NCBI GenBank assembly: GCA_024683955.1
Contig: JAIKXS010000023.1
Coordinates: 1-64,000, forward strand
Reading direction: 5' to 3'
Length of the DNA: 64,000 nucleotides
Source: Desulfovibrio sp.
Lineage (GTDB): Bacteria; Desulfobacterota; Desulfovibrionia; Desulfovibrionales; Desulfovibrionaceae
The position numbers were made by a program, and so were the translations under genes. Below are positions 17,605-26,620 of the stretch, piece by piece (position 1 is the first letter of the stretch; the number at the start of each line of letters is the position of its first letter). The notes under the pieces were generated by a model. The model saw only the letters and a list, made by a program, of their open reading frames with translations. It was not told where the DNA came from and made no database searches.

Positions 17605-18495
17605 ATGCTTCTTCTAGATGGTAAGGCCACAGCTCAAACAGTGCGGGAAGAGCTGAAAAAAATTATTGCCACGGCCATCTCCGCTGGCCGGAGACCTCCT
17701 GGACTTGCGGTGATTCTTGCCGGAGAAGATCCCGCTTCTCAGGTGTATGTCAGAAACAAGGAATTTGCCTGTACACACGTGGGTATTTATGTGGAGACAT
17801 GCCGTCTTCCTGAATCCGTCACTGAAGCTGAGGTCGTTCGCTGTATTGACCGTTTTAATCAGCGAAGTGACATCGATGGGATTCTTGTCCAACTTCCGCT
17901 CCCGAAGCACATTCGCCCGTCCATCTGTCTTTTGGCGATTGATCCCGCCAAGGATGTTGATGGGTTCCATCCGGAAAATGCAGGCAAATTGACCCTGGGC
18001 CTTCCCGGTCTCAGACCCTGCACACCCCAGGGAATTATAGAACTTCTGCGCCGCTATGGGCTCTCGCCGCGTGGAAAGAAGGCCGTGGTCGTCGGACGGT
18101 CCAATATAGTAGGAAAACCCCTGGCGATCCTTTTGGCTGAACCCTTAGAATACGCCAATGCAACGGTCACGCTCTGTCATTCCGAGACGTGTAATCTTGC
18201 AAATGAATGCAGACAGGCTGACTTTCTTTTCCTTGCTGTCGGAAAGCCCCGATTCTTTACCGCTTCCATGGTCAGGGAGGGAAGTGTCGTGATTGACGTC
18301 GGCATCAATAGAACCCCTGCGGGACTTTGTGGCGACGCTGACTTTGAGGGACTGAAAGATCATGTTTCCGCGATCACGCCCGTCCCGGGAGGGATCGGTC
18401 CCATGACAGTTGCTATGCTGTTGAAAAATACGGTGGATGCGTGGCAGGGAAGAACTTCCGCCTCTCTCAAGAAAGAGACAGAAATCTCTTCGTGA
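17605..18495 (+). CDS. folD: Bifunctional methylene-THF dehydrogenase/cyclohydrolase
   Basis: A 296-residue FolD enzyme interconverting 5,10-methylene- and 10-formyl-tetrahydrofolate with NADP. The active-site region YVRNKEFAC holds the Tyr-x3-Lys pair; GILVQLPLPKHI and DVDGFHPENAGKL are standard, the nucleotide site reads VVVGRSNIVGKPLA, and the C-terminal ITPVPGGIGPMTVAMLL is invariant. The cofactor product feeds the transformylase encoded at 34506 and tRNA initiator formylation. It precedes the sugar operon by about 200 bases. Confidence 0.96.
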   Translation: MLLLDGKATAQTVREELKKIIATAISAGRRPPGLAVILAGEDPASQVYVRNKEFACTHVGIYVETCRLPESVTEAEVVRCIDRFNQRSDIDGILVQLPLPKHIRPSICLLAIDPAKDVDGFHPENAGKLTLGLPGLRPCTPQGIIELLRRYGLSPRGKKAVVVGRSNIVGKPLAILLAEPLEYANATVTLCHSETCNLANECRQADFLFLAVGKPRFFTASMVREGSVVIDVGINRTPAGLCGDADFEGLKDHVSAITPVPGGIGPMTVAMLLKNTVDAWQGRTSASLKKETEISS

Positions 18496-18709: not shown

Positions 18710-19789
18710 ATGTTTCGCAATGCAAAAAACGTAGGCTATTACATGATTGGTAAAGGGAGTCTCTCCCAACTGGGGGATGTCCTTGAAAAACGCCGTTCCT
18801 CAGTGAAGGGCCCGGCCGTTTTTTTTCTTGACCACTTTTTCCGTAACCAGGATCTTGCAAAAAAACTTCCCTTGGCCCCTAACGATATTCTACTCTACGT
18901 AGATACCACTGAGGAGCCCACAACGCACGGCGTGGACGCGTACACAGCCCAGGTAAAAGAAGAACTTCATGGTGCTCTTCCTTCCGCCATGCTGGCATTT
19001 GGCGGTGGTTCCACCATGGATACGTGCAAATGCGTGGGGAATCTGCTCACCAATCCGGGCAAATCCGAGGACTATCAGGGCTGGGAGCTCGTTAAGAATC
19101 CGGCCCCGTACAAAATTGCCGTTCCAACCCTTTCGGGTACGGGCTCCGAGACTTCTCGTACGGGCATTGTCTGCAATGAAGCCAAGAATCTCAAGCTTGG
19201 TATGAATAGTGACTTTACTATGTTTGATCAGGTTATTCTTGATCCGGATCTTACTGTGACGGTCCCTCGCAATCAGTATTTCTATACCGGTATTGACACT
19301 TATATGCATTGTTTTGAGAGCATTACCGGCACCTACCGCAATGCGGTTGTAGACGCGCTTTCGGAAAAAGCCATTGACCTATGCAAGCGAATTTTCCTTT
19401 CAAAAGACATGATGAGTGATGAAAATCGTGAATTGCTTATGATTGCCTCCTTCCTTGGCGGCATGGCAGCCGGTTTTGTCGGGACGGTCCACCCTGTTTC
19501 GGCGGGATTAAGCATGGTCCTGCACATGCACCACGGCCTTGCCAACTGTTATGCGCTCTCTGTGCAGGAGGATATTTATCCCGAGTACTACCGTGATTTC
19601 ATGACCATGATCGAACGTCAGCGAATCGACTTGCCGTCTGGCATCTGTAAGGATCTTGAGCCGGCACAGTACGACGCCCTCTATGAGGCAAGCATTGTTC
19701 ATGAAAAGCCTCTTTCGAACCGGTTAGGACCAGATTTCAAGAAAATTTTTACGAAGGACAACGTGATCGGGCGTTTTAAACGCATGTAG
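18710..19789 (+). CDS. kdnB: KdnB-like iron-containing alcohol dehydrogenase
   Basis: A 359-residue group III Fe-dependent alcohol dehydrogenase that closely resembles KdnB, the enzyme of Shewanella that oxidises C8 of Kdo on the way to 8-amino-Kdo (Kdo8N). Shared text includes GGGSTMD, LTNPGKSEDYQGWELVKNPA, PTLSGTGSETSRT, LGMNSDFTMFDQVI and YFYTGIDTYMHCFES. The metal ligands are kept: Asp196, His200, His261 and His275. Start ATG 18710 has AAGGA six bases upstream. It opens the six-gene sugar operon. Oxidation of Kdo itself is inferred; a related ulosonic acid could be the substrate. Confidence 0.8.
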   Translation: MFRNAKNVGYYMIGKGSLSQLGDVLEKRRSSVKGPAVFFLDHFFRNQDLAKKLPLAPNDILLYVDTTEEPTTHGVDAYTAQVKEELHGALPSAMLAFGGGSTMDTCKCVGNLLTNPGKSEDYQGWELVKNPAPYKIAVPTLSGTGSETSRTGIVCNEAKNLKLGMNSDFTMFDQVILDPDLTVTVPRNQYFYTGIDTYMHCFESITGTYRNAVVDALSEKAIDLCKRIFLSKDMMSDENRELLMIASFLGGMAAGFVGTVHPVSAGLSMVLHMHHGLANCYALSVQEDIYPEYYRDFMTMIERQRIDLPSGICKDLEPAQYDALYEASIVHEKPLSNRLGPDFKKIFTKDNVIGRFKRM

Positions 19790-19873
19790 CGTTTATTCTA
19801 TTTGTGTATCCCTGCAGCACCCGCGCATTCCTTGCGGAATACGAATGGGCCTTGTCATCCATGAAGGTGAATA

Positions 19874-21061
19874 ATGGATATCAGAGTTAATTTCAGCGGT
19901 CGTTCCATTCGCTATACTGACGAGGAGGTTCAGACCGTTGTCGAGGCAATGCAAAACGCCGAACCTCTCACCCAGGGAAAATACATGCAGGCTTTTGAAG
20001 GGAAGTTTGCACGGTTCCAGGGAGTAGAGGAGGGGAGTTGTTTTACAACCGTGAACGGCTGTGCTGCCCTTGAGATGAGTGCGCAGCTCTGTCGCTTTGC
20101 GCCTGGTGATGAATTTGTCATTCCGTCCCATACATTTACGGCCTCATGCTATCCTTACATCAAGAAGGGAGGGCGGCCAGTATGGGCTGATATCGACCGG
20201 AAAACGAGAGTCGTGACAGCTGAAAGCATTGAAAAGGTTCTGACAGAAAAAACCAAGGCTGTTGTGGTTGTCCATCTTTATGGATACGTTGCGGACATGC
20301 CTGAGATCGTCGCGCTTTGCCGGGAGCGCGGGATTCTTCTCATTGAGGATACCGCCCAGGCCATAGGCAGCACCCTCAGAGGGCAGCGGGCCGGTTCCTT
20401 TGGCGATATGGCAATCTTTTCTTTTCACTCTCATAAAAATCTGACCACTCTTGGTGAAGGGGGCATGCTTTACGTACGGGATCCAGCGCTGAGGGGCATT
20501 GTGCCCATGCTTCGGCATAACGGTCACTGCGCCTATGAATTTGAACGGCCAGATTACTGGGTTCCGGCCATGGGCAACGTGGATATGCCTATGCTTGGCT
20601 CGGATATGCTCTATCCGAACAATATGTGCCTCGGAGAGATTGAGTGCGCCCTCGGGGCCAAAATGCTTGACCGTATTGACAGTATTAACGCCGAAAAGCG
20701 TGAGCGTGCCATCAGGTTTATAGATGGTTTAGCAGAGTTCCCCGAGCTTCGTTTCCATCGTGAATCTACTGCCAGGCATAACTACCATCTTCTGGTGGCT
20801 GAGATGACTACGGGACCGTCACAGCGTGACCGCTTCATCCGCGCCATGTATGAGGAGAAGGGCATCAAATGCGTTGTGCAGTATATTCCGCTTAATCGTT
20901 ATGATTTCTATAAACGGCTCGGCTTTGCCAAGGCGGACTGCCCCAACGCCGACGCATTTTTTGACTCCATGGTCTCCTTTCCCTTTCAGCACTGGATGAG
21001 TGAGGAGGACTTTTCTTACATGCTTGAAATGACCCGAGAGGTCCTCTCGAGTATTCGCTAG
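19874..21061 (+). CDS. DegT/DnrJ/EryC1 sugar aminotransferase (KdnA role)
   Basis: A 395-residue PLP-dependent aminotransferase of the DegT family. The PLP-binding lysine is Lys188 in SFHSHKNLTTLGEGG; the cofactor-phosphate region and the VVHLYGYVADMPEI and LLIEDTAQAIGS segments are typical. With the KdnB-like oxidase just upstream, it probably converts the aldehyde at the oxidised carbon to an amine, the role of KdnA in Kdo8N synthesis. Overall similarity looks nearer to general DegT sugar aminotransferases than to KdnA, so the substrate is uncertain. AAGGTG precedes the ATG. Confidence 0.85.
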   Translation: MDIRVNFSGRSIRYTDEEVQTVVEAMQNAEPLTQGKYMQAFEGKFARFQGVEEGSCFTTVNGCAALEMSAQLCRFAPGDEFVIPSHTFTASCYPYIKKGGRPVWADIDRKTRVVTAESIEKVLTEKTKAVVVVHLYGYVADMPEIVALCRERGILLIEDTAQAIGSTLRGQRAGSFGDMAIFSFHSHKNLTTLGEGGMLYVRDPALRGIVPMLRHNGHCAYEFERPDYWVPAMGNVDMPMLGSDMLYPNNMCLGEIECALGAKMLDRIDSINAEKRERAIRFIDGLAEFPELRFHRESTARHNYHLLVAEMTTGPSQRDRFIRAMYEEKGIKCVVQYIPLNRYDFYKRLGFAKADCPNADAFFDSMVSFPFQHWMSEEDFSYMLEMTREVLSSIR

Positions 21062-21069
21062 GCCGACCC

Positions 21070-22686
21070 GTGAAAGAGCGCTGTCTCGTCATCCCCGCCA
21101 TCAAAAAAAATGCGGTCATTCCCGACCAGCTTGTGAAACGGCTTGCTGGGAAAACGTTGATTTCACGGGCCATTGATACTGCCCGCGGAGTCTGTCTGCC
21201 AGAAGATATCATCGTCCTGACGGACAGCCAGGAAATTACCCTTTTTTGTGAGCGTGCTGGTGTGCGTTTTCACAGAAATAAGGACCTGCGTTTTACGTCA
21301 AGGGATATTGTCCGTGAAATGCAGGATTTCCTTGGCCGTCTCGCCGCTGAGTACGTCCACTGCATTATCTATCGGGCATCATGCCCGCTTATCACGTGGG
21401 TTGACATTGAAAATGCATGGAAAGAATACCGTCATAATGGTGCCGACGCGCTTGTGACGGTCAGGAAGGTGCATCACAGACTGTGGAACATGCGTGACGG
21501 CAATCTGGAGCGTTTCCTTGAAAAGAAGGAACATCCTTTCGTGGTGGAGAACAGGGCGCTCATTATGCTGAAACTGGCCCTGCTCCCGGACTGGGACAAG
21601 CAGCACATTCGTATCCTTCCCTGCTTTCTCAACGAACAGGGCATTGAAATTCAGGGCTATCAGGATTGGTGGATTTGTGAGCGTCTTTTGCAGCGCCGGC
21701 ATATTGTCTTTGTCGTGGCCGGGTTTCCGGCCATCGGCATGGGGCATGTTTTCCGGGCGCTGATGATGGCGCACGAGATTGTCAATCACAAGATAACCTT
21801 CGTCTGTACGCGCGAAAGCGAACTGGCTGTCGAGAATATCGCAGAGCGGGACTATCCCATTGTGAGGCAGGGGGATGAGCCTTTGGAGGAGACTGTCCTG
21901 CACCTTCGCCCAGATCTCGTGATCAACGATTTTTTGAATACTCCTCTCACCTATATGCAGGCTCTTTCTTCGGCAGGAATACGTGCTATTAACTTTGAGG
22001 ACGATGGTGAAGGAGCCTCTCTGGCAGCCCTTGTCATCAACGCTCTTTACGAGGCCGGTGCATCAACCGAACGCGTGCGGACGGGCCCTTCCTATTTCTG
22101 TCTGCGAGATGAATTCCTGGAGGCAAAACGCAATGAGTTGCGCGACGGTGTGCGGACGCTTCTTATCACGTTTGGTGGGACGGATCAGTATGACTGCACG
22201 CACAGGGTGCTTGCCATTGTGGCACCGATTTGCCGTGCTTACGGTATCCGCGTCCGAATTGTTGTGGGTCCCGGCTATGCCCATAAGGAATCCCTCGCGG
22301 CCTTTGTCAAAGAGCTCGAAAATCCACTTATCGAATGCACGTGGGCCACGAATATTATGAGCCGCATGATGGAGGGGGCTGACCTGGCTATTTCTTCGGC
22401 GGGGAGAACCGTATACGAACTCGCTCATATGCGTATTCCGGCTTTGGTCCTTGCCCACCATGAGCGTGAGGCGAGGCACTCTTTTGCGCGGCCAAAAAAC
22501 GGCTTTGCCTTTGTCGGAATTATGCAAAAAGTTAGTGATACAAGAATCAGGAATATGTTTTTAGCCATGTTGAAGCAGACGCGCAGGGCCAGATTCTGGC
22601 AGCGTCAGAACAACCTTGATTTTGTGCCAAATAAAGCGCGTGTGATTGCCCTTATGGAGCGCGTCCTTGAGGCGGATGAAGTTTGA
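21070..22686 (+). CDS. Fused cytidylyltransferase and PseG-like glycosyltransferase/hydrolase
   Basis: A 538-residue two-domain protein. Residues 1-215 are a NeuA/PseF/KdsB-like CMP-sugar synthetase fold; the N-terminal nucleotide motif is unusual, reading VIPAIKKNAVIPDQLVKRLA where R-x-G-S-K-G is usual. Residues 220-538 are PseG-like (GT-B fold): IVFVVAGFPAIGMGHVFRAL holds the G-x-G-H-V-x-R site, and AISSAGRTVYELAHMRIPAL the sugar-nucleotide site. PseG normally removes UDP in pseudaminic acid synthesis. No NeuB-type synthase is present, so the second domain may act as a transferase. GTG start, 9 bases after the aminotransferase gene. Confidence 0.8.
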   Translation: MKERCLVIPAIKKNAVIPDQLVKRLAGKTLISRAIDTARGVCLPEDIIVLTDSQEITLFCERAGVRFHRNKDLRFTSRDIVREMQDFLGRLAAEYVHCIIYRASCPLITWVDIENAWKEYRHNGADALVTVRKVHHRLWNMRDGNLERFLEKKEHPFVVENRALIMLKLALLPDWDKQHIRILPCFLNEQGIEIQGYQDWWICERLLQRRHIVFVVAGFPAIGMGHVFRALMMAHEIVNHKITFVCTRESELAVENIAERDYPIVRQGDEPLEETVLHLRPDLVINDFLNTPLTYMQALSSAGIRAINFEDDGEGASLAALVINALYEAGASTERVRTGPSYFCLRDEFLEAKRNELRDGVRTLLITFGGTDQYDCTHRVLAIVAPICRAYGIRVRIVVGPGYAHKESLAAFVKELENPLIECTWATNIMSRMMEGADLAISSAGRTVYELAHMRIPALVLAHHEREARHSFARPKNGFAFVGIMQKVSDTRIRNMFLAMLKQTRRARFWQRQNNLDFVPNKARVIALMERVLEADEV

Positions 22687-22722
22687 CTGCGCGCTTGACT
22701 GGCGCACGGAAAAGGAGATGTT

Positions 22723-23433
22723 ATGGCTGGCGTAAAGGCTCCGTATGTCGCCATTGTTCAGGCACGGCTCGGATCAAGCCGTCTTCCGTTGAAATCCCTG
22801 CTATGTCTGCGTGATCTTCCGCTGATCGACTGGGTCATTACGAGACTTCAGAGCTCCAAAAGGCTTGATGGACTCATTGTGGCCATTCCCGACACTCCCC
22901 TTGACCAGGTCCTGTACGAACATCTCGCCCGGCGGGGGATTCCTTGTCTTATGGGAAGTGAGAACGACGTGCTCTCACGCTATTGTCTTGCCGCAAGGGA
23001 GACGAAGGCCAAAACCGTTATTCGGGTCTGCGCGGATAATCCCCTGATCTGGGGGGAGGCCGTGGATAGGCTGATTGACCATTATGAACGCCATCCCTGC
23101 GATTATGCCTACAATCATGTCCCACGCGACAACCGTTGGCCCGATGGCCTCGGCGCTGAGATCCTTCCGGCGGATTTGCTTTTCGGCATTGAAAAAAAAG
23201 CCTTCGAGTCTTCCCAGCGGGAGCACTGCCTCAACTACATCTGGGATAACAGGCACCATTTCCGTATATCGACCTTTGATCCTGAAGAACCATGGCTCTG
23301 CAGGCCGGATCTGAAGCTTGATATTGACCGCCCCTCGGATTTCGCCAGACTTGCTCGTCTTCCTCTTGATCCTGCAATGGATGCAAAAAGCATAGTGGCG
23401 TTGTTCCCGGCAAAGGGGGAGAACGGGTGCTGA
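22723..23433 (+). CDS. SpsF/KdsB-like cytidylyltransferase
   Basis: A 236-residue nucleotidyltransferase with the N-terminal signature AIVQARLGSSRLPLKSL, the SpsF (spore coat polysaccharide) type of the CMP-Kdo synthetase superfamily. The metal-binding RVCADNPLIWGE and the C-terminal RPDLKLDIDRPSDFARL are typical. It likely activates an acidic sugar as CMP derivative. Together with the fused domain upstream this gives two cytidylyltransferases in one operon. AAGGAGAT precedes the ATG; its end overlaps the next gene by 7 bases. Confidence 0.85.
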   Translation: MAGVKAPYVAIVQARLGSSRLPLKSLLCLRDLPLIDWVITRLQSSKRLDGLIVAIPDTPLDQVLYEHLARRGIPCLMGSENDVLSRYCLAARETKAKTVIRVCADNPLIWGEAVDRLIDHYERHPCDYAYNHVPRDNRWPDGLGAEILPADLLFGIEKKAFESSQREHCLNYIWDNRHHFRISTFDPEEPWLCRPDLKLDIDRPSDFARLARLPLDPAMDAKSIVALFPAKGENGC

Positions 23434-25073
23434 CGAAAAACTGGAGGGTCAATCCGAAAACAACGCACGCAATGGTGACGTCACCGCATTATCTTGCAAG
23501 CGAGGCGGGCCTTGCGCTCTTGCGCCGGGGAGCAAACGCCGTTGAAGCGGCCATCGCCATGGCGACCACGTTAGCCGTTGTCTATCCTCATATGTGCACC
23601 CTCGGCGGTGACGCCTTCTGGCTTGTCTATAATGCCGACTCAAAGCATCTTACGGGAATAAACGCGAGCGGAAGGGCCGCAGCAAAGGCAACCATCGAAG
23701 CCTATCGTTCAAGGGGGTTCACGCGTATCCCCTATAAGGGGCCGCTTGCGGCAAACACGGTGCCAGGGATGGTTTCAGGTCTTGAAAAAGCCTATCACCT
23801 CGCTCAGGAAATTGGGGGGACCTTCACGTGGTCTGAGCTTCTTGAAAGCGCGCTTCTGTATGCCCTTGACGGCTTTCCCCAGTCGATTTCTTACTGTCTC
23901 CACGGAAAGATGATGCTCTCACGGTGTGAACGAAAAGCCGACGGCCATGCTGTCCTTCCTGAATTTCGCCGGATTTTTTTGAGCGAATACGCCTGCCAGG
24001 AAGGTGCTGTCTTCAGACAACCCGATCTGGCAAGGAACCTTGCCATTCTTGCCAAAGAAGGACCTCGTGCTTTTTATGAAGGGGAAATAGCCCATGCCAT
24101 CGTACACGATCTTGAGACGCTCGGGGGGCTTCTTACCCTTGAGGACTTTGCGAGCCATACCGCCACGATGGTTTCCCCTATCTGTGTTTCCTACCATGGC
24201 CTCGAGGCCTGGAATCTTCCGCCAAACAGCCAGGGGATGGCTTCTCTCAGCATTTTGAATATTCTCGACAATCTTTCTCTTCCATCCTCTCTTGAGACGC
24301 CAGAAGCTCTTGCTTGCTATGTTGATACGCTTGTCTGCGCGACAAAAGAAGCGTTCCGTGACCGTGATCGGTATCTTACTGATCCGGACTTCTCCCTTAT
24401 TCCTCTTGAGAAGCTCCTCGGACGCGAACACGGACGTAGACAGGCGGAAAGAGTGTGTGCAGGCAAGACCATGTCTCTGACATATCGTCTTGACCCAGCG
24501 GGGGACACGGTCTGGTTTGGTGTCGTCGACGCTTTTGGAAACGCCGTCTCTTATATACAAAGCATTTATTATGATTTCGGCTCGGGCGTTGTGCCAAAGG
24601 GAACAGGCATTCTTTTGCAAAATCGCGGAGCCTTTTTCTCTCTGGATCCTCGCCATGTGAATGCCCTGGCTCCCGGAAAACGTACTTTCCATACGCTCAA
24701 TCCCGCTATGCTTCTGAAAGAGGGAAAGCCCTTTCTCGTGTACGGTACCATGGGTGGTGAGGGGCAGCCCCAAACCCAGAGCGCTCTCGTGACCCGCATC
24801 GTAGACTACGGAATGACGCCCATGGAGGCCATTTCCGAGCCACGGTGGCTGTACGGAAGCGCTTTTGGTGAGCAAACAAATTCCCTTAAGATCGAGGACC
24901 GTTTCGGAAAAGAGGTCGAGCGTCTTCTTTCCCAGCGCGGGCATTCTGTATCTGCCGTTGACGGCTTTCATGAGATGATGGGGCATGCAGGAGCCATTCT
25001 TATCGAGCCGAGGACAGGGGTTCTACAGGGAGGAACTGATATCAGAAGTGACGGCCTGGCCACAGGTTTTTGA
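23427..25073 (+). CDS. Gamma-glutamyltransferase homologue, cytoplasmic (YwrD-type)
   Basis: A 548-residue Ntn-hydrolase of the GGT family. The presumed self-cleavage and catalytic threonine is Thr361 in GDTVWFGVVDAFGNAVSY, leaving a 188-residue small subunit of normal size. The large subunit shows MVTSPHYLASEAGLALLRRG and GGDAFWLVYN. No signal peptide is visible, unlike periplasmic GGTs, and the sequence around GVVPKGTGILLQNRGAFFSL resembles the YwrD-like branch. It overlaps both neighbours by a few bases, so it is translated with the sugar genes. A role in amide hydrolysis or transfer of an acyl group on the sugar is possible; a true glutathione role is the alternative. Confidence 0.85.
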   Translation: MLTKNWRVNPKTTHAMVTSPHYLASEAGLALLRRGANAVEAAIAMATTLAVVYPHMCTLGGDAFWLVYNADSKHLTGINASGRAAAKATIEAYRSRGFTRIPYKGPLAANTVPGMVSGLEKAYHLAQEIGGTFTWSELLESALLYALDGFPQSISYCLHGKMMLSRCERKADGHAVLPEFRRIFLSEYACQEGAVFRQPDLARNLAILAKEGPRAFYEGEIAHAIVHDLETLGGLLTLEDFASHTATMVSPICVSYHGLEAWNLPPNSQGMASLSILNILDNLSLPSSLETPEALACYVDTLVCATKEAFRDRDRYLTDPDFSLIPLEKLLGREHGRRQAERVCAGKTMSLTYRLDPAGDTVWFGVVDAFGNAVSYIQSIYYDFGSGVVPKGTGILLQNRGAFFSLDPRHVNALAPGKRTFHTLNPAMLLKEGKPFLVYGTMGGEGQPQTQSALVTRIVDYGMTPMEAISEPRWLYGSAFGEQTNSLKIEDRFGKEVERLLSQRGHSVSAVDGFHEMMGHAGAILIEPRTGVLQGGTDIRSDGLATGF

Positions 25074-26620
25074 GGCGGTTTCGCTGCCTTTCGGGAGACA
25101 CAACGAGGGTGAGACCTGAACGTTTTTTTGTTTCCGACTTTGCCGGCCGTTCCATGGCTATGGACGGAAACTGGCGAGCATGGATTCCTCTTTCTGAAGG
25201 GGAAAACGTTCTTCTTTTGGGTCTCGGTCCGACAGGGGCAGACATTCCATCCCTTCTCCTTAATCGTCCCGTTTTTTGGCTTGATTCTCCCTCCCTTCTG
25301 GAAGCGACAGGACGTGAGCGAACCCTTCCGGCTTCGTGGAGGAAGGCCTCTCCGGAAGAGGCAATAGCTCTTTTTCCTGCTGCGCGCTGCTACTTTTACA
25401 GGCCCGGCCTTCGCATCGACCCATTTTTCTGGCAGCCCTTCCTTGGACGTCTCTTTGCCACGGCTGATTCCTGGTCCTCACCCTCTTCCAAGGCGGCTCC
25501 CCAGGTCCTTCTTTTCGGGAACTCCTCTGACCTTCTGCATTCGGAACTTCTGACAGCCCTTATGCATGAGGGCTCCCGCGTTGTCTCAAGCCTTCCCGTC
25601 CAGTCCGGAACGAACATTGAAACCCTTCTTTGTGATGCCTGTCAGGGCAGTGTTCCATCTCTCTGTCTGAGCGTGAACGGTCGTGGCCTTGATGCGGACG
25701 GGCGCATTTTTGGTCTTCTTGAGGCCCTGCGTGTCCCTGTCGTCATCTGGTTCGTTGACAATCCCTTTCACGTTCTCTCGAGAATAAAGCTTCCTTTTTG
25801 GAAGCGTGCCACTCTTTTTGTTACGGACGCATCCTTCATTCCCCTTCTTGTCTCGGAAGGGGCCCGGCATGTCCGTCATTTACCCCTTGCCGTTGCCTGG
25901 CATATGTGGCGTGATCTCCCCTGTGAAAATCCACGTGCACTTCAAGGGCACGCCGAGTCTCCTCCATTGTTCGTCGGGCGTTCCGCCTTTCCTGACAAGA
26001 ACCGCTATTTTGCAGCAGTTCGCCTACCAAAGGCTTTGGAAATGGAGGCGTGCTCGCTTGACAGGAAGGGTGAGGTCCCCGATATCCACTGGTGGTATCG
26101 AAAGGCAAGGACGTGTTTCTGGCCAGGTCATGATGTGCGAATGCCGGGTCTTGGGGCCGAGATGTGTTCGCAGAAGAATCGAACACGCTGGCTTTCCTGG
26201 GGACTGAAATGCGGTATGCGTATTGTCGGGGATGAGGGGTGGAGGAAGCTTCTGCCGGGGGCCCAGATAGATGCACCGGTGGATTATTATGGGACTCTGC
26301 CGGATCTCTATTACAGGGCTCTTGCCACGCTCAACGTCACAAGCTGGCAGTTGCCGGCAAGTCTGAGTCAGCGGCATTTTGACGTGTGGGCCTCGGGCGG
26401 GTTCCTGCTGAGTGATGCAACAAGGGGACTCTCGATTTTTCCGGAGGAGCTTGTGCGTCCGATCACGGTCGAACATCCCTCCCTGCTCGGTAATGCCATC
26501 GGCTTTCTCAAAAACCACCGGGAGGAAGGCCTTTTGCTTAGAAAGGCCTGGCGGGCGCACCTGCTTGAAAAGCATACCTATTCGCACAGACTTAATGACA
26601 TGCGCCAGGCGTGCATGTAG
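25070..26620 (+). CDS. CgeB-like glycosyltransferase
   Basis: A 516-residue GT-B glycosyltransferase of the CgeB/Glyco_trans_1_2 group, common in Desulfovibrio surface-sugar loci. The C-terminal part has YYRALATLNVTSWQLPASLS, then QRHFDVWASGGFLLSD, the nucleotide-sugar site of the family; VVIWFVDNPFHVLSRI marks the N-terminal domain. It is the last gene of the operon and probably transfers the sugar made by the upstream enzymes. The start is uncertain: TTG 25070 overlaps the GGT stop by 4 bases, while GTG 25109 is an alternative. Confidence 0.82.
   Translation: MRRFRCLSGDTTRVRPERFFVSDFAGRSMAMDGNWRAWIPLSEGENVLLLGLGPTGADIPSLLLNRPVFWLDSPSLLEATGRERTLPASWRKASPEEAIALFPAARCYFYRPGLRIDPFFWQPFLGRLFATADSWSSPSSKAAPQVLLFGNSSDLLHSELLTALMHEGSRVVSSLPVQSGTNIETLLCDACQGSVPSLCLSVNGRGLDADGRIFGLLEALRVPVVIWFVDNPFHVLSRIKLPFWKRATLFVTDASFIPLLVSEGARHVRHLPLAVAWHMWRDLPCENPRALQGHAESPPLFVGRSAFPDKNRYFAAVRLPKALEMEACSLDRKGEVPDIHWWYRKARTCFWPGHDVRMPGLGAEMCSQKNRTRWLSWGLKCGMRIVGDEGWRKLLPGAQIDAPVDYYGTLPDLYYRALATLNVTSWQLPASLSQRHFDVWASGGFLLSDATRGLSIFPEELVRPITVEHPSLLGNAIGFLKNHREEGLLLRKAWRAHLLEKHTYSHRLNDMRQACM

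Follow-up and report, generated by a model that had tools for sequence, protein, structure and literature searches.

We analyzed a 64,000-nucleotide stretch of a Desulfovibrio sp. genome (positions 1 to 64,000 of contig JAIKXS010000023.1, assembly GCA_024683955.1; hereafter the window), in which six open reading frames (ORFs) at 18710-26620 had been proposed, from the sequence alone, to form a KdnB-like operon for an amino-ulosonic acid. All six lie on the + strand and are tightly packed or overlapping, and profile searches against NCBIfam and Pfam, with Protein Data Bank (PDB) sequence searches for all of the proteins except P4 and P6, bore out every family named in that original prediction. 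P1 (18710..19789, 359 residues) is a KdnB-type iron/zinc alcohol dehydrogenase that begins 214 nt 3' of folD. After a gap of 84 nt follows P2 (19874..21061, 395 residues), a DegT/PseC-like aminotransferase dependent on pyridoxal phosphate (PLP), and 8 nt later P3 (21070..22686), in which a NeuA/PseF-like domain is fused to a PseG-type nucleotide-sugar hydrolase domain. P4 (22723..23433), 36 nt further on, is an SpsF/KdsB-like cytidylyltransferase. The gamma-glutamyltransferase (GGT) homologue P5 (23427..25073) overlaps P4 by 7 nt, and the CgeB-like glycosyltransferase P6 (25070..26620) overlaps P5 by 4 nt.

P1 retrieves Shewanella KdnB from the PDB (5k8c, E 4e-89; 3rf7, E 6e-91) with 43% identity over 360 columns, in keeping with the KdnB-like oxidase that had been predicted. 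D196, H200, H261, and H275, the presumed metal ligands by analogy with the iron-dependent alcohol dehydrogenase family, are invariant in 55 of 55 rows. P2 matches PF01041 with 281 bits, and its best NCBIfam match is PseC (221 bits, under the cut-off of 423.5); KdnA (5k8b) matches P2 at 112 bits (2.5e-31), rank 23 in the PDB list. K188 of P2, presumably the PLP lysine, is invariant in 61/61 rows. The N-terminal domain of P3 spans residues 1 to about 205 and the PseG-type domain about 209-465, the latter with the motif GxGHxxR; the NCBIfam scores are 123 bits for PseG (cut-off 153.55) and 43 bits for PseF, and profile matches include PpNeuA (7e-29) and the PseG-type hydrolase 3hbm (3e-12). P4 (PF02348, 78 bits) retains the motifs QARxGS.RLP.K and D.D, to which we assign catalytic roles by assumption, and the presumed catalytic residues R15, S18, R20, K24, D200, and D202 are kept in 64-65 of 65 rows. 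Its scores against the KdsB models, 19-57 bits, are far under their cut-offs of 155-281. P5 exceeds the cut-off of TIGR00066 (397.5 against 357.85 bits) and has the presumed nucleophile T361, and P6 matches PF13524 with 65 bits and DUF3880 weakly.

Conservation of the operon was followed in two samples. The first holds 79 congeneric genomes including that of the window (a 2.58-Mb draft, 92.8% complete), 66 with P3 and 13 without it; the second holds 78 loci from named records, some of them short, from which the records of the window's own genome may have been left out. Genes were placed by tblastn and conservation-weighted calling, as longest-ORF calling was misleading in high-GC loci. All four of P1-P4 are present in 53 of the 78 loci, and 52 of these 53 keep the order P1-P2-P3-P4 on one strand, the sole exception being L179, with an inverted P4. 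Among the congener loci that were fetched, those with the complete set of four likewise have this order, in most cases with coaX, eno, and folD upstream; in the window, folD (17605..18495, + strand, assigned by family search) is such a conserved neighbor outside the pathway. Of the 66 P3-bearing congeners, 65 gave a KdnB orthologue, G011 by a 71-residue fragment; none was found in G012, a 90%-complete draft that holds P3. The same search gave 0 orthologues among the 13 P3-less congeners, whose best matches were generic iron-dependent alcohol dehydrogenases. GGT scores above 400 bits in only 4/78 loci and CgeB is present in 2/78; the two occur together with the core in the window and in two of the 78 loci, L176 and L178, where the pair directly follows it. 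Accordingly, the conserved core consists of four genes, those for the KdnB-type dehydrogenase, DegT, the cytidylyltransferase/PseG fusion, and the SpsF-type protein, and GGT and CgeB are lineage extras. The expectation that six genes stay together in relatives thus holds for the first four, and a six-gene unit is rejected, given the scarcity of the last two. In four loci a WcbI-like gene lies directly after kdnB, and before degT where this is on the same contig (L077:7119-8150, L078:7129-7998, L080:12007-12873, L094:7141-7992; PF18588, 104 bits in L077, the one tested); such an accessory might acylate the new amine.

The fused protein P3 comes in two kinds. In relatives without KdnB nearby, its N-terminal domain carries the motifs IPARGGSKGIPxKx and DID; in KdnB-type loci these read IPAxKKxxxIPDQLxK and EIx.YQDWW, or close variants, so that residues presumed, by analogy with CMP-sugar (cytidine monophosphate sugar) synthetases, to be the catalytic ones are replaced. 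Among 80 P3 rows, 73 were readable, 8 of them canonical and 65 degenerate, the window included, in a scan that used two peptide patterns, one being the degenerate YQDWWI. All 64 degenerate-motif loci apart from the window have at least one of KdnB, DegT, and SpsF nearby, and none of the three occurs in the fetched flanks of the eight canonical loci (only 827 bases upstream in L087). A search of seven canonical-motif genomes found no KdnB orthologue, the best match having 32% identity. No KdnB lies in the flank of 13 of the 78 loci, although P3 there is degenerate or unreadable at its N-terminus; in four of these that were checked, KdnB was present elsewhere in three genomes and was not found in the small draft L243. 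In a tree of the PseG domain from 33 chosen rows, the two kinds are parted by one branch with support of 100/99, five rows with unreadable motifs having been labeled KdnB-type beforehand. These labels place KdnB-type PseG domains in Thermodesulfobacteriota, Myxococcota, Bacteroidota, Campylobacterota, and one draft titled Betaproteobacteria, and KdnB itself was seen in all of these except Myxococcota. In L245 and L253, the PseG domain directly follows DegT with less than 70 nt between them, leaving no room for a cytidylyltransferase domain. Judged by its motifs, the N-terminal domain of P3 is probably dead where KdnB is present.

The operon of the window contains no NeuB synthase, as had been stated, but the conclusion that the pathway lacks one does not hold: NeuB is unlinked in this genus and linked in ten other loci. 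The window genome encodes one NeuB-family protein on another contig (G000:C40), with NeuB and SAF domains; it reaches 330 bits against TIGR03569, under the cut-off of 399.65, and scores higher against NeuB_NnaB than against PseI. In the 79 congeners, a NeuB orthologue and P3 are both present in 65, P3 only in one, NeuB only in two, and neither in 11 (Fisher p 1e-10, uncorrected for kinship). The P3-only genome, G038, retains a 27-residue NeuB fragment beside the gene for a LIC12162-family transferase. The two NeuB-only genomes, G039 and G077, likely have an assembly gap, since the operon-adjoining folD is also missing there, with no match in G039 and only a 44% match in G077. G039 is rated 100% complete and yet has no folD match, which suggests that the eno-folD-operon stretch is missing from its assembly.

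Ten of the 78 loci have KdnB and NeuB together in a single cluster: four titled Desulfovibrio sp. (L223, L224, L229, L230), Desulfovibrio cuneatus (L227), Nitratidesulfovibrio oxamicus (L237), two titled Desulfarculus sp. (L234, L244), and, in Bacteroidota, one of Cytophagales (L233) and one of Bacteroidetes (L235). In L246-L252 and L087 (G090), NeuB directly follows a P3 homologue in a KdnB-free flank, and the NeuB proteins of L246-L252 are 55-58% identical to that of the window genome. Because such pairs exist without KdnB, P3 and NeuB appear to be a long-standing pair to which KdnB, DegT, and SpsF were added. A genome of another family has a NeuB relative (75%) beside a stop-riddled P3-like stretch, apparently a decayed copy (G129:C62:2280-4181). 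By sequence, the window genome appears to have what a NeuB-dependent pathway needs, namely a NeuB/SAF synthase, a PseG-type hydrolase to free the sugar, and in P4 a CMP-sugar synthetase with its catalytic motifs. The pathway is probably split over two loci in the window's genus and belongs to the NeuB-dependent ulosonic acid kind, with a new composition.

At the gene level, these statements on content, conservation, co-occurrence, and motifs are well supported. What they suggest, with reasonable probability, is an ulosonic-acid pathway that depends on NeuB: KdnB and DegT would add an amine, likeliest at the terminal carbon, and SpsF would make the CMP-sugar. The PseG domain of P3 would free the sugar from a uridine diphosphate sugar (UDP-sugar), and the NeuB-family synthase would condense it with phosphoenolpyruvate to an ulosonic acid with a terminal CH2OH. 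KdnB would oxidize this group to the aldehyde, DegT would aminate the aldehyde, SpsF would form the CMP-sugar, and a glycosyltransferase, possibly the LIC12162-family protein, would move the sugar onto a cell-surface glycan. The dead domain of P3 would prevent activation of the un-aminated acid. The product, by analogy, is likely a 9-amino-9-deoxy nonulosonic acid, the nine-carbon counterpart of 8-amino-3,8-dideoxy-D-manno-octulosonic acid (Kdo8N), and an eight-carbon product is possible; it is a prediction, as are each reaction, the order of the steps, the carbon that bears the amine, and the acceptor. The pairing of a KdnB-type oxidase with an aminotransferase for an amino-ulosonic acid, as originally proposed, is supported, and so is the view that the combination differs from the known Kdo8N set and probably makes a different sugar.

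The order of the steps can be argued from two sides. In a survey of 25 operon-bearing genomes, picked from the 66 because they were well assembled or small, PseB was over its cut-off in five, with scores of 287 and 189 bits in two more; in the window genome PseB was not over the cut-off, and Epimerase_2 was absent from 13 of the 25, including the window genome and four reduced ones. The survey gives no support to PseB or a hydrolyzing 2-epimerase as a required upstream enzyme. Since both are patchy, a 9-deoxy pseudaminic or legionaminic acid route does not seem to be needed, and the NeuB product should keep its terminal CH2OH. The sole characterized relative of P1 listed in PMC5125639, KdnB, oxidizes C8 of 3-deoxy-D-manno-octulosonic acid (Kdo), the primary alcohol of a free ulosonic acid, and the order PseG, NeuB, KdnB, DegT, SpsF is favored for this reason.

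KdnB and DegT may instead act before NeuB on a UDP-sugar, replacing the PseB/SpsM dehydratase and its aminotransferase and placing the amine at C7 (by C4 oxidation) or C9 (by C6 oxidation). This order is nearly as economical as the favored one, P2 is closest to PseC, the gene order resembles that of pse clusters, and few of the surveyed genomes have PseB over the cut-off. A UDP-linked route is moreover what PMC7439481 describes for B. subtilis spsC, D, G, E, F, and M, a genetically tested set for CMP-legionaminic acid. However, the characterized relative of P1, 43% identical over its full length, acts on C8 of Kdo, and amination before NeuB gives no clear reason for a dead cytidylyltransferase domain where KdnB is present. 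We consider this order unlikely, though a serious competitor.

Several observations weigh against amination of the NeuB product by a conserved four-gene core. P2 is nearer PseC and other nucleotide-sugar aminotransferases than KdnA, which fits amination before NeuB, and no source was found for the substrate of PseG. Linkage also fails in places: G045 (L098, L190) has DegT-P3 without an adjacent KdnB or SpsF, G027 (L240) has P3-SpsF with KdnB on a separate contig, G059 (L187) has no SpsF within 4.2 kb 3' of P3, and KdnB was found neither for G012 nor for L243. The 79 genomes do not count as independent samples, and those without the operon perhaps represent only a few clades. The locus scan drew on the degenerate motif, so that its proportions are biased and are no census; the association of the motif with KdnB is not due to this bias, since the canonical loci could have held KdnB and yet did not. 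Finally, LIC12162 is present in four genomes without NeuB or core (G006, G050, G057, G078), and in the window genome it adjoins another CMP-ulosonate module.

Improbable, in our view, is the Kdo8N pathway proper, in which P1 and P2 would make Kdo8N from Kdo and P4 CMP-Kdo8N, with P3 and NeuB serving another sugar. P1 is homologous to KdnB, and the window genome should make Kdo, having kdsA, a kdsB-kdsC fusion, and kdsD; Kdo was also measured in D. desulfuricans lipopolysaccharide (LPS), contrary to an older suggestion of its absence, according to PMC3354558. On the other hand, PseG and NeuB stay with KdnB in loci across phyla, P2 is not closest to KdnA, and P4 is far under the KdsB cut-offs. 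Kdo as the likely substrate is not supported, the conserved partners being PseG and NeuB. As for the fusion, kdsB and kdsC are joined in one ORF (L102:9987-11243) between kdsA and kdsD.

For the amino nonulosonic acid that we favor, an envelope glycan is the likeliest destination, because LIC12162 is present in all 66 operon-bearing congeners (G060 by a 52-residue fragment) and its gene directly follows neuB in 20 of 21 neighborhoods, those of 20 chosen congeners and the window genome, which is the exception. LIC12162 was also found in 6 of the 13 other congeners. The two proteins tested score 302 and 410 bits against TIGR04331 (cut-off 225), and a LIC12162 alignment profile against the PDB returned nothing useful. 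Counting against an envelope glycan, a fliS homologue, a FliD-like ORF, or both lie near neuB in 10/21 neighborhoods, and fliS adjoins neuB in the window genome (L101; Pfam FliS, 77 bits). That the sugar decorates flagellin is nevertheless very improbable: 14 of the 66 operon-bearing congeners have no flagellin match, 10 of these 14 being rated at least 90% complete and one, G062, a single-contig genome of 1,410,056 bp, and 8 of the 13 operon-lacking congeners have one (Fisher p 0.28). The operon is also kept in Candidatus Desulfovibrio kirbyi (L203), which PMC7608387 describes as likely non-motile, with flagellar components absent except fliM and several LPS genes lost. Flagellin is not an obligatory target, and as a general target it is rejected, its presence not tracking the operon.

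A second CMP-ulosonate-like module, with an HpaI-type aldolase and an NAD epimerase, lies beside LIC12162 in the window genome (L103:2506-7614, contig C85) and in three other loci (L227:17408-20526, and 3' of LIC12162 in L223 and L237). A second KdsB-like enzyme occurs in the module of L103 and in two of the three other loci, L227 and L237, over the subfamily cut-off in the two tested, and the L103 module also contains an acetyltransferase, a GT8 protein, and an HAD phosphatase. An aldolase-made ulosonic acid from this module is possible.

An essential role for GGT and CgeB, giving the amino-acid-linked sugar once envisaged, is hardly credible: P4, P5, and P6 overlap in the window, and in L176 and L178 the core is likewise followed by GGT and CgeB, but GGT in 4/78 and CgeB in 2/78 loci, some of them short, leave such a product unsupported. 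Beyond P6, between the operon and a copper ATPase gene that converges on it, is a 13-pair hairpin (window:26632-26664) whose T-run is on the - strand; in scans for promoters and terminators, matches were no more numerous than in shuffles.

We tentatively put forward a broader claim, for which our confidence falls somewhat short of even: an undescribed, multi-phylum route to a terminal-amine sialic-acid-like sugar (9-amino-9-deoxy nonulosonic acid), in which a PseG-NeuB pathway recruited a KdnB-type oxidase and an aminotransferase, its original cytidylyltransferase domain fell silent, and a different enzyme assumed that role. This sugar would be a very common Desulfovibrio envelope component, kept even in a genome-reduced protist ectosymbiont. 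Neither a KdnB-NeuB cassette nor a natural 9-amino nonulosonic acid was found in titles and abstract starts of the open-licence literature, which is weak evidence, as subscription literature was mostly uncovered; Flexibacter maritimus is known to have an 8-amino nonulosonic acid (PMC3210612). If the claim is true, it would add a new nonulosonic-acid branch and a zwitterionic surface sugar (amine and carboxylate) in gut sulfate reducers and protist symbionts, which could affect surface charge, cationic-peptide resistance, and recognition by host proteins that bind sialic acid. KdnB would gain a second context, and a testable rule would follow, that a dead cytidylyltransferase domain on a PseG fusion accompanies KdnB and SpsF. 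The prediction can be tested directly in D. cuneatus DSM 11391, where the genes stand in a single run.

Among known systems, the Kdo8N pathway of Shewanella oneidensis (KdnB, KdnA) resembles the operon in its KdnB homologue, with 43% identity and conserved presumed metal ligands, in the pairing of oxidase and PLP aminotransferase, and in a cytidylyltransferase separate from the normal one. The KdsB of Shewanella prefers Kdo8N. The operon differs in its PseG and NeuB partners, in an aminotransferase that is not closest to KdnA, and in an SpsF-type CMP transferase where a KdsB-type enzyme would be expected for CMP-Kdo8N; the window genome carries its normal kds genes at other sites. The Sps legionaminic acid pathway of Bacillus subtilis is similar by family names, with an aminotransferase, a PseG-like hydrolase, a NeuB-type synthase, and an SpsF-type cytidylyltransferase; SpsC, SpsG, SpsE, and SpsF act there in one CMP-legionaminic acid route, as PMC7439481 reports. 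In the present system, KdnB stands in place of the 4,6-dehydratase SpsM, the four-gene core has no acetyltransferase, and a dead cytidylyltransferase domain is fused to PseG. Likenesses to the pseudaminic acid pathway (PseB, C, H, G, I, F) are the PseC-, PseG-, and PseF-like domains; in contrast, PseB is over its cut-off in only the five of 25 genomes noted above, the synthase is nearer NeuB_NnaB than PseI, and the PseF-like motifs are lost. The pairs of a cytidylyltransferase-PseG fusion with NeuB in Bordetella genomosp. 7, Geomonas, Ferrimonas, Pseudidiomarina, and others (L246-L252) share the same fusion and a related NeuB with the window genome, whereas their cytidylyltransferase motifs are intact and their flanks contain no KdnB, DegT, or SpsF.

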